Origin: Halorussus vallis
Lineage (GTDB): Archaea; Halobacteriota; Halobacteria; Halobacteriales; Haladaptataceae
DNA: 64,000 bases
Assembly: GCF_024138165.1 (NCBI RefSeq)
Contig: NZ_CP100000.1
Span: 1,302,001-1,366,000 of the forward strand
Direction of reading: 5' to 3'
This document shows, piece after piece, positions 26,890 to 30,209 of this stretch. Numbering within the stretch: the first letter of the stretch is position 1; the number at the start of each line of letters is the position of its first letter. The position numbers were made by a program, and so were the translations under genes. The notes under the pieces are model-generated. The model did not search any database and had not been told where the DNA came from. It saw only the letters and a list, made by a program, of their open reading frames with translations.

Positions 26890-27672
26890 ATGAGCGATGG
26901 TGGAGTGCGATACCGAAGCGAGCAGGCCGGCGGCGAGGACGACGGGCCTGCCGAGTCGCCCGAGGACGACTTCTCGGACTTCCTCGGACTCCTCCACGAA
27001 CTCAAAGTAGACGGTTGCAACATCCTCGTCGTGGGCGACGCGCGTCGCGAACTGTTCACGCGGGCGAGCACGAGCCTCCTCGGCGACGCGAGCGCGCACC
27101 GCTACCGCGTCCTCGCGGTCACCGACGCGAGTTCCCGGAGCGTCGCCGACCGCTTGCCCGCGCCGGAAACGACGCCTCAGCCGCTGTCGACGACGACGAA
27201 GCTGGTGAGCCACGCCGCGCCGCCGCGGTCGCTCTCGGCCGACGCCGACGCCGACGTCCGGTCGGCGCTCGCCGACATTCCGGAGGCCCACGTCGCCGAC
27301 CCCGAACTCACGGGCCTCCGGGACGAACTGGTCGACGGGATGGCAAGGTTCGAGCGGCGGGCTGACGGCGGTCTCCGACCGGCGGAGTTACGGGTCGGCC
27401 TCGACTCGCTGTCGGCGCTGCTCGACCGCTACGACCGCGAGGTCGTCCGCGACTGCGTCGACCGGGTCACCGCGCGCGCTCGGGCCTACGACGCGATGGC
27501 GCACTACGTTCTTCCCGAACCGTACGGCGGCGACCGCGTCCAGTCGCTCGTCGACGGGTTCGACGCCGTCATCGAACTCCGGAGCGTCGACCCCGCGGGC
27601 CGGGGCCACGACGCCGAGGAACGGTGGCACGTCCCCGACCGCGACCTGACGATGGACTGGCTTCCGCTGTGA
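26890..27672 (+). CDS. DUF7504-like RecA-fold protein of the CHAT locus
   Basis: A 260-residue soluble acidic protein. An N-terminal acidic region of ~30 residues leads to a strand-loop pattern, VDGCNILVVGDARRELFTRASTSLLG, that occupies the place of a P-loop in RecA-like proteins but has no GK[ST]; then YRVLAVTDASSRSVADRLP, a second core strand. The C-terminal half has paired helices (ELRVGLDSLSALLDRYDREVV) and a strand VIELRSVD, ending in DLTMDWLPL. From memory this fits haloarchaeal DUF7504, often found with HalOD1 and DUF7503 proteins. It is 78 nt upstream of the CHAT protease on the same strand, suggesting a partner or regulator of it. No activity can be claimed. Confidence 0.65.
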   Translation: MSDGGVRYRSEQAGGEDDGPAESPEDDFSDFLGLLHELKVDGCNILVVGDARRELFTRASTSLLGDASAHRYRVLAVTDASSRSVADRLPAPETTPQPLSTTTKLVSHAAPPRSLSADADADVRSALADIPEAHVADPELTGLRDELVDGMARFERRADGGLRPAELRVGLDSLSALLDRYDREVVRDCVDRVTARARAYDAMAHYVLPEPYGGDRVQSLVDGFDAVIELRSVDPAGRGHDAEERWHVPDRDLTMDWLPL

Positions 27673-27750
27673 GAGTACCGTCGCCGTCACGGTAGACGCC
27701 GACCGATTCGTCCGTCGCAGTCGACTCGCGTCGCCAGCGCTCGACACACC

Positions 27751-29898
27751 ATGCACCCACAGTTCGAAACGCTCGCCGCAGGGACCGGACTGGTCACCAT
27801 CGACCCCGTCGAGAGCCGGCGGTTCGTTCTGTTCACGGCCGACCGCGTGACCCCGGTCGAAACCGACGTCGGCGGCTTCGTCTTCCCTGTTTCGGCCGCT
27901 GTCGCGGTCGAAACCAGTCGAGTCACGCTCCCCTACAACCTCCCGGTCACGATCCGGGACGGCGACGGCGACCACGTCGCCGACGTCGCCCACGAGACGA
28001 ACCGGACGTTTCCCCCGGGGACGCACCTCCTCGAACTGAGCGCCCCGATAAAGCTCTACCTCCGGGTCGAGGGCGAACTCGCCGTGACCGCCGACGCCGA
28101 CCGGGTACGATTCGACTTCGGCGAATCGACCCGCGTCGGCGTCGGCGCGCGGTCGTTCCACACCTCGCCGGTCGCGACCCTCACCGTCCCGGACGACCCC
28201 GAGTCGCTCCTTCGGGCGGTTTCGACGTTCTCCTCGGCGCTGAAGACCACGACCTGCGAGCGGTCCTGGCCGACGCTCCGGGGCCACCCGCCTCGGGTCG
28301 AAATCGGCGACGAACTGGCGATTCCCGACGGCCTGACCAGACCGGAGACGGGCGTGATCGTCCACGTCCCACCGGAGTACGAGTACGTCTACCCCGTCGC
28401 GCCGCTGGCGTACTACCTCGGCGCGGACGTGGTGCCGGCCGAGACGCCGCGCCTGACCACCGACGCGGGACTCGTCCACCGACTCGACACCGACCGGGGG
28501 TTCGAAGACGAGGTGATTCGAACCCTGCAACGGACGTTCGCCCTCGACTGCGTGACTCGGACCGAGGGCTACTACCCCGTGGCGTTGCACGAGCGGCGCC
28601 TCGCGGAGTCGAACCCGGCCGTCGACCTCGACTTCGCCGCGCTGTACGACGCCCCGCTGACCGCGCAACTGGAGGCGTACCTGTCGGTCCCCTTCGAGGC
28701 GGTCGAGGAACTGGTGCCGACGTGGCACCGGGTCACCCACGTCCGACCGACATCCGACAGCGCGGAACTGCTCCCCCACGTCGTCGACGACCTCTCGCTC
28801 GTCCGGGCGCGGACGCCCGCCGACCCCGGTTCACCGTCGCCGACCGAGCGCGTGGCGAAGGAGGCGGTCGGCGCGTTCAAACGCTCCGCCGGGGGTCGTC
28901 CCGACGGCGGAACGGTTCGCTCGGGCGACGCAGCGGGGTCGGGAGAGGGACTCGGACCCGGCCACGGGGAGGGCCGCGGCGTCCCCGGCCCCGGCGGGTA
29001 CGTTCCGATGCCCGACATCGACGAGGCCATCGAGCAGGCCTGGGTCGGCGACGGCACCCCCGAACGCGGCGCGAAACTCGTCCGGGAGGCCTTCGAACAC
29101 CCGCAGGGCGAACCCACCGACGGCACCATCGACGTGACCGTCGTCTGCAACGACGAGGAGATGCGCGCGGAACACGACACCGTCGCCGACGTCTACGGGA
29201 CGCGCGAGGTGGTGCCGTTCGACCTCGACTGTCGGTTCGGCGTCGAAACCGACGAGCTCCGGGACCTGCTGGCGGCCGACACCGACCTGTTCCACTTCAT
29301 CGGGCACATCGACGGCGACGGGTTCGAGTGTCCGGACGGGGTCGTGGACGCTACGACGCTGGCGAAGACGGGTGCGACCACGGCGCTGTTGAACGGCTGT
29401 CGCTCGCACGACCAGGGCGTCGCGCTGGTCGAGCGGGGGACGAAGGCGGCCGTCGTGAGTTTAGCCGACGTCGGGAACCGCGGGGCGTCGGAGGTCGGGG
29501 AGACGCTTGCGAGGCTGTTGAACCACGGATTCGGAACCGGGAGCGCGCTCGAACTTGCCCGCGAGTACACCTCGATCGGCAGAGATTACGTCGTCGTCGG
29601 CGACCCCAGTGTCGCTATCGCACAGCGGTCGGCGAACACGGCGATGACCTACGACATCCGGACAGGGTCGGCCGACGGACTGGAGATAACGCCGATGGTG
29701 TATTCGACCCGCGTCGGTGTCGTCGGAAGAATCGTGCGGTCGCACCTTCCGAAAGACGAGACGTACTTCCTTCGGTTCGGTCGCCTTCCGACGATGACGA
29801 GCGATTGGAAGCGGGTCAGACACGTCTTGGGCGATTCCGCTCCGCTCATCGTCGACGGGGATTTGCAGTGGTATAGAACGTTCTTCGACGGCCGGTGA
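27751..29898 (+). CDS. CHAT-domain (caspase-like) protease
   Basis: A 715-residue cytoplasmic protein whose C-terminal third is a CHAT peptidase domain of the caspase/gingipain clan. The dyad is visible: His519 in DLFHFIGHIDG and Cys550 in ALLNGCRSHDQG, each after a hydrophobic strand, followed by ERGTKAAVVSLADVGNRGASEVGETLARLL and the helix-strand pair ending YVVVGDPSVAIA that closes CHAT domains. The first ~350 residues form a separate beta-rich domain (VIVHVPPEYEYVYPVAPLAYYLGADVV), linked to CHAT by a Gly-rich segment (about 380-417). The last ~70 residues are less GC-rich in codon choice. It follows a DUF7504-like gene and faces a 45-residue membrane peptide gene. Such proteases act on partner proteins in signalling or defence; the substrate here is unknown. 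Confidence 0.85.
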   Translation: MHPQFETLAAGTGLVTIDPVESRRFVLFTADRVTPVETDVGGFVFPVSAAVAVETSRVTLPYNLPVTIRDGDGDHVADVAHETNRTFPPGTHLLELSAPIKLYLRVEGELAVTADADRVRFDFGESTRVGVGARSFHTSPVATLTVPDDPESLLRAVSTFSSALKTTTCERSWPTLRGHPPRVEIGDELAIPDGLTRPETGVIVHVPPEYEYVYPVAPLAYYLGADVVPAETPRLTTDAGLVHRLDTDRGFEDEVIRTLQRTFALDCVTRTEGYYPVALHERRLAESNPAVDLDFAALYDAPLTAQLEAYLSVPFEAVEELVPTWHRVTHVRPTSDSAELLPHVVDDLSLVRARTPADPGSPSPTERVAKEAVGAFKRSAGGRPDGGTVRSGDAAGSGEGLGPGHGEGRGVPGPGGYVPMPDIDEAIEQAWVGDGTPERGAKLVREAFEHPQGEPTDGTIDVTVVCNDEEMRAEHDTVADVYGTREVVPFDLDCRFGVETDELRDLLAADTDLFHFIGHIDGDGFECPDGVVDATTLAKTGATTALLNGCRSHDQGVALVERGTKAAVVSLADVGNRGASEVGETLARLLNHGFGTGSALELAREYTSIGRDYVVVGDPSVAIAQRSANTAMTYDIRTGSADGLEITPMVYSTRVGVVGRIVRSHLPKDETYFLRFGRLPTMTSDWKRVRHVLGDSAPLIVDGDLQWYRTFFDGR

Positions 29899-29901
29899 CC
29901 G

Positions 29902-30039
29902 CTACGGTCCGACGATAGCGACGCCGCCACCCGCCGACGCGTTTCCGCACGCGCCGAGGACGAGAAGCACCATCCAGAGCGCGCCCATCAGTTTCGGATT
30001 CTCTGCGAGCCATCCCGTGAGTCGGTTCGTACCGGACAT
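29902..30039 (-). CDS. Tiny lipoprotein-like membrane peptide (DUF7503-like)
   Basis: A 45-residue product: polar N-terminus MSGTNRLTGWLAENPK, one hydrophobic span LMGALWMVLLVLGAC that ends in a lipobox-like LGAC, and a small Gly/Ala-rich tail (CGNASAGGGVAIVGP). If processed at the Cys, the mature part is only 15 residues. From memory this matches the haloarchaeal DUF7503 family. It is transcribed toward the CHAT gene, with the two stops 3 nt apart. A TATA-like CATTATC lies about 25-30 nt upstream of the ATG. It could be the membrane component or the target of the CHAT protease; this is inference. Confidence 0.75.
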   Translation of the reverse strand: MSGTNRLTGWLAENPKLMGALWMVLLVLGACGNASAGGGVAIVGP

Positions 30040-30209
30040 ACCACTTACTCCGACACTGCTAGATAATGAACAAGTTTCTATTACTTCATGACAGTAATGT
30101 CCAGTACTAAAGTGGTCGCGAAGAAACCCGGGTGCGCCGTCTCGCCTCGTCGACGCAACGTTTGTGCAGGTACGACAACTTAAGCCGCTTCGCCGCCACT
30201 GCTCCCGAT

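Follow-up and report, generated by a model that had tools for sequence, protein, structure and literature searches.

A predicted CHAT protease gene and a convergent gene for a Gly-Pro-tailed peptide form a conserved pair in haloarchaea

Do three neighbouring genes in Halorussus vallis work as one unit, and which part of their smallest product matters? The window, that is, the whole stretch of 64,000 nucleotides that was analysed, holds a gene for a DUF7504 protein, a gene for a CHAT protein and a small convergent gene, all of which were found where the initial annotation had placed them. That annotation had proposed a regulator, a protease and a membrane target with a role in defence or programmed death. 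Its observation on the three-gene locus is confirmed, and the core of it is stronger than could have been known when it was made. The features are as follows.

26890..27672, + strand: DUF7504 protein of 260 aa with a KaiC/RecA fold and a degenerate Walker A (ILVVGDARRELFTRAS); Pfam PF24336, E=2.1e-42
27751..29898, + strand: predicted CHAT protease of 715 aa, from the AF2 model and Foldseek (Pfam CHAT sub-threshold); N-terminal beta/alpha region, mostly beta, at residues ~1-350, low-confidence linker at ~358-407, CHAT domain at ~425-620, then a C-terminal extension
29305..29307, + strand: codon of His519, predicted catalytic, in a FIGHI motif; same residue in all 101 homologues
29398..29400, + strand: codon of Cys550, predicted catalytic, in an LNGCRS motif; same residue in all 101 homologues
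29902..30039, - strand: DUF7503 peptide of 45 aa, convergent with CHAT; Pfam PF24335, E=4.3e-11, and family survey
29905..29910, - strand: C-terminal Gly-Pro codons of the DUF7503 peptide; Gly-Pro (GP) in 72 of 78 family members

The stop codons of the CHAT and DUF7503 genes are separated by 3 nt.

Folds of the two larger proteins

The Pfam CHAT family (PF12770) scores the window protein at 16.6 bits, below the cut-off of 24, and a sequence search of the PDB gave no match; only the fold search gave relatives. A confident AlphaFold (AF2) model of the CHAT protein, built with 50 homologues as input (pLDDT 87.2, pTM 0.88), had separase (E down to 6e-8), SAVED-CHAT, gingipain and TPR-CHAT as its best PDB matches in Foldseek. 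His519 and Cys550, together with His515, Cys527 and Asn548, are invariant across an alignment of 101 homologues, from which six retrieved sequences were left out, and the His-Cys dyad is kept in every aligned sequence, with or without a peptide partner. The earlier description of a caspase-like protease with a His519/Cys550 pair is thus upheld by the confident model and by the presence of both residues in all homologues. Because the Pfam score lies under the cut-off, membership was assigned by fold and motif: as modelled, the protein is a sequence-divergent member of clan CD, for which proteolysis is predicted.

The AF2 model of the DUF7504 protein (pLDDT 90.8) has KaiC structures as its best Foldseek matches (E ~1e-6). 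The Walker A consensus GxxxxGK[ST] has been lost, with GK[ST] in none of 43 homologues, which agrees with the P-loop-like strand without lysine that had been noticed in the window. The protein is likely to be a pseudo-ATPase. In 48 of 78 loci, a DUF7504 gene immediately precedes CHAT on the same strand, and the genome of the window has 16 copies, most of them not beside a CHAT gene. DUF7504 thus accompanies the CHAT/peptide pair often but not obligatorily.

Pairing of the CHAT and peptide genes

The genome of the window contains seven CHAT genes of the same family, six of which face a convergent peptide gene of about 44 codons at their 3' end, with two of these six peptides scoring below the Pfam cut-off for DUF7503. 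The same arrangement was recovered at 80 loci from other haloarchaea. When fixed criteria were applied, a convergent 40-50-aa ORF starting with ATG and ending in Gly-Pro was found for 67 of 78 CHAT genes, as compared to none of 218 control genes. In the 32 haloarchaeal genomes with complete match lists, 52 of the 53 peptide matches (E<1e-3) adjoin a CHAT gene, all of them convergently and in no other orientation. An independent distribution, which the initial annotation had named as a refuting outcome, was thus not observed. In a survey of 59 genomes, the eight without CHAT also lacked the peptide, save for one marginal match (E=0.006). The CHAT and peptide genes form a conserved, convergent and co-inherited module, far beyond chance. 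Of the proposed three-part unit, the protease/peptide pairing is thus genuine, but DUF7504 is optional and a role as membrane target is weakened by the data on the peptide given below.

At most loci, the two genes share 4 nt at their stop codons, abut, or end no more than 7 nt from each other; the gaps reach 126 nt, and one locus overlaps by 17 nt. Many peptide genes have an AT-rich BRE/TATA-like promoter element of their own near -39. Upstream of the peptide gene in the window (30040-30130, - strand) is a strongly AT-rich, conserved promoter region, with ATTACTGTCA and CAGTG motifs farther upstream that also occur at locus L010. Distances between peptide tails correlate with distances between CHAT proteins (Mantel r ~0.5); linkage alone accounts for a value of this size, and the correlation was set aside as evidence for coevolution.

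Some CHAT genes in several clades have no detectable peptide and nevertheless keep the dyad. In a Halorussus clade close to the CHAT of the window, a convergent thioredoxin-like gene takes the place of the peptide gene (L015, L017-L019, L021, L095 and L097-L100). A deep-branching CHAT group in many haloarchaeal families is adjoined by a gene that is TbsP-like (DUF5821-type, as judged by eye), usually with no GP peptide (L107, L110-L112, L114, L118, L126, and L013 of the genome of the window). Outside Halobacteria, CHAT relatives were recovered in one family only of the phylum sample, as single and distant copies (L162-L165 in genomes G079, G088, G097 and G103). No convergent GP peptide was seen beside these four relatives, which are possibly the outgroup of the haloarchaeal CHAT family.

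In Halorussus pelagicus, a plasmid-borne CHAT/peptide pair (L141:2169-5830) directly adjoins a restriction-modification pair of the XamI type. The plasmid records label the peptide and most CHAT genes as hypothetical.

The peptide body and the Gly-Pro tail

Most peptides share a body with the pattern [NH]P[RK]-M/L-x-G-hydrophobic-QAG, followed by a tail with GP at the C-terminus. This ending is the near-invariant trait of the family and is retained even in Halorussus members with a diverged body, while the residues ahead of it vary widely. All four glycine and all four proline codons occur in the terminal GP. In pairwise comparisons within Haloferax, the summed synonymous to non-synonymous codon differences were 276:153 in the body, 47:86 in the tail before GP, and 34:0 in GP. 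These patterns indicate that GP is conserved at the amino-acid level, not at the DNA level. A DNA-level element, such as a terminator or RNA, is ruled out by the codon variety. A constraint from the overlapping CHAT frame is likewise ruled out, by the overlaps of at most 4 nt in nearly all loci (17 nt in one case), the codon variety and the gaps of up to 126 nt. The peptide body was found without a terminal GP at seven loci, all with an intact CHAT dyad; five of these belong to a single Haladaptatus clade (L056, L063, L065, L074 and L076) and the other two are L046 and L061.

The hydrophobicity of the peptides is moderate (median best 19-aa KD 1.6), most having one hydrophobic stretch. The product in the window had been described as a 45-aa lipoprotein-like peptide; its length and convergent orientation stand, but a lipobox-like LGAC is present in only one of 78 peptides, the window's own copy, and the lipoprotein reading is ruled out as a one-member coincidence. 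The charges that flank the hydrophobic segment suggest an N-in/C-out topology, in which the tail would be external and separated from a cytosolic protease. The canonical peptide is thus likely to be N-in/C-out, and the repeat form described below is likely to be soluble.

A natural experiment on which part of the peptide works is built into Haloplanus. All 12 genomes of this genus have a single CHAT gene and a convergent GP gene that overlap by 4 nt. Three species encode the canonical peptide; in the remaining nine, the hydrophobic body is missing and the tail is repeated in tandem, head to tail, with a period of exactly 13 residues. The numbers of visible units in these species are 2, 4, at least 4 (part being masked), 5, 7, 7, 10, 13 and 14 (Haloplanus loci L128-L140). 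At L128, the 13 units are identical as protein and all 13 differ in DNA, so that selection acts at the protein level on the frame and on every tail unit. We interpret the repeat as a protein-level repeat under strong selection that arose once the hydrophobic body had been lost, and its layout as the architecture of a multi-copy peptide precursor. Two other genomes (L106/L107) encode a hydrophilic 45-aa convergent peptide that ends in STYGGP. Judged by these variants, the hydrophobic segment is dispensable and the GP tail mostly is not. Since nine Haloplanus species have lost the body and amplified the tail, it is probably the tail that does the work of the peptide, rather than a membrane pore. 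The suggestion that the peptide is a pore or membrane target is accordingly weakened by the nine Haloplanus species and by the two genomes with hydrophilic peptides.

Possible functions and relation to known systems

We place slightly less than an even chance on a two-gene haloarchaeal core in which CHAT would process a dedicated GP-tailed peptide and free GP-ended tails. The peptide would be the substrate of the neighbouring protease, and the KaiC-fold DUF7504 protein that often precedes CHAT would be a regulator. In most lineages the hydrophobic body would anchor the tail to the membrane or within it. Once switched on, perhaps via DUF7504, CHAT would cut the peptide and yield one short GP-ended product, or many from the repeat form, and the freed product would be the active output, as a signal or an effector. 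Expression of the two genes may be coupled through their convergent 3' ends, which abut or overlap. CHAT without the peptide is tolerated and common, and the peptide without CHAT is essentially absent; because of this asymmetry, a substrate or dependent effector fits better than an inhibitor or antitoxin. Against the substrate model stand the cut after proline that would be needed to free GP-ended repeat units, which is unusual in clan CD proteases, the predicted C-out tail, the loci without GP, the wide variation of the residues ahead of GP, and the fact that a conserved cut site between body and tail was looked for in the peptides and not found.

Several features would also suit a GP tail that is never cut and instead docks in CHAT as a pseudosubstrate inhibitor or an activator that sets its activity, with repeats raising the dose. 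No feature of the peptide is more constrained than its free C-terminal GP, tandem identical units are suited to a multivalent ligand, and the pairing with CHAT is strict. As an essential inhibitor, such a ligand is at odds with whole clades that keep a CHAT with an intact dyad and no peptide, and orphan inhibitors would be expected, yet were not found; we consider an uncut ligand rather unlikely. Along the lines of the initial annotation, the peptide could be an effector that forms membrane pores, or a toxin, which CHAT would activate or restrain in a defence or cell-death module. CHAT proteases of bacteria activate pore-forming gasdermins, most of the peptides have one hydrophobic stretch, and the peptide is essentially never found apart from CHAT. 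The species that dropped this stretch and kept GP speak against a pore, and the defence role found no backing: PADLOC gave no defence-family match for the three locus proteins and no CHAT relatives were found in viral contigs or phages. A pore effector is in our judgement improbable. The neighbouring genes also vary between CHAT loci, and a defence-island reading was rejected on these grounds.

The Ala-rich site 10-12 residues before the C-terminus, the lineage-specific tails and the multi-copy precursor of Haloplanus might instead indicate an exported pheromone, in which the body would be a Sec-type signal with an h-region and an AxA-like c-region, the GP tail of 8-10 residues would be secreted, and CHAT would act in maturation or response. 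However, an export signal is lacking in the repeat form, and the body is conserved far beyond usual signal peptides, which makes a pheromone very unlikely. A device at the level of translation or RNA, with the peptide as a secondary product, would draw on the stop codons that overlap or fall within -4..+7 nt in most loci: GP-stop could stall termination in the manner of SecM/TnaC, or convergent transcripts could cross-regulate as in type I toxin-antitoxin systems. In bacteria, translation termination is known to be slower after a C-terminal proline. Such a device is hardly to be expected here, as gaps of up to 126 nt occur and the 13 protein-identical, DNA-different units show selection on protein; translational arrest in particular is disfavoured by the internal GP every 13 residues, where the ribosome would stall repeatedly.

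We compared the haloarchaeal pair, with CHAT as the putative processing enzyme, to known systems. TPR-CHAT/Csx29-Csx30 of the type III-E Craspase likewise combines a CHAT-fold cysteine protease with a linked, dedicated protein partner, and is among the Foldseek matches (8eey, 7y84). Craspase includes Cas7-11 and CRISPR, whereas PADLOC matched none of the three proteins here; the partner in haloarchaea is a convergent peptide of ~44 aa, not an anti-sigma-type protein, and the N-terminal domain differs. SAVED-CHAT (PDB 8tl0) shares the CHAT domain and is also among the best structural matches, but the haloarchaeal module has no SAVED domain, cyclic-nucleotide system or further caspase. Bacterial gasdermin systems resemble it in having a CHAT or caspase-like protease and a membrane-associated partner in one locus. 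The partner here is 43-49 aa long, matches only DUF7503, has no gasdermin fold and can drop its hydrophobic segment entirely, and no gasdermin gene is present in the three-gene module of the window.

In cyanobacteria, the CHAT protein HetF works in a pathway with the tiny PatS/PatX peptides, which signal through their C-terminal motif. The likeness to a CHAT protease with tiny peptides that carry a C-terminal signal motif is one of description: the PatS motif is RGSGR, as compared to GP here, and the HetF and PatS genes are no strict convergent pair. Multi-copy precursors of the yeast alpha-factor type also repeat a short unit in tandem, the copies being identical in protein and silently different in DNA; unlike these, the haloarchaeal repeat form has no leader or export signal, and in most species the tail is present only once, at the C-terminus. 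As regards toxin-antitoxin pairs, in which the toxin is not tolerated alone, CHAT occurs alone with an intact dyad and the peptide essentially never does so.

DUF7503 (PF24335) and DUF7504 (PF24336) are both Pfam families of unknown function. In the literature searched, no paper names either family or describes CHAT in Haloferax or other haloarchaea, none describes the CHAT/peptide pairing, and none was found for CHAT with arCOG. The near-constant Gly-Pro end of the peptide that faces CHAT, and its repetition in Haloplanus, point to an undescribed protease-plus-peptide system. Should the peptide be a ligand released by the protease, the pair would represent a form of protease-peptide control that has not been described in archaea.

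A strong caspase-like activity was measured in extracts of Haloferax volcanii in 2012 (PMC3615174). According to its authors, archaeal genomes have no clear caspase homologues and the responsible protein was still to be identified (PMC3615174). The haloarchaeal CHAT family is, as we infer, a candidate for this activity. A broader and doubtful proposal is that of a new archaeal intracellular peptide system, in which a caspase-like protease would act on a dedicated precursor, which in Haloplanus is multi-copy, to release short, paralogue-specific peptides with a free GP end. Several such pairs would coexist in a cell, and the system may be or include the caspase-like enzyme of H. volcanii. In the control searches with DUF7503 and DUF7504, one control genome, taken to be that of H. 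volcanii, scored over the cut-off in each. A Haloferax genome related to H. volcanii has a single CHAT copy, and with these matches the link to the caspase-like activity can be tested by a simple knock-out.
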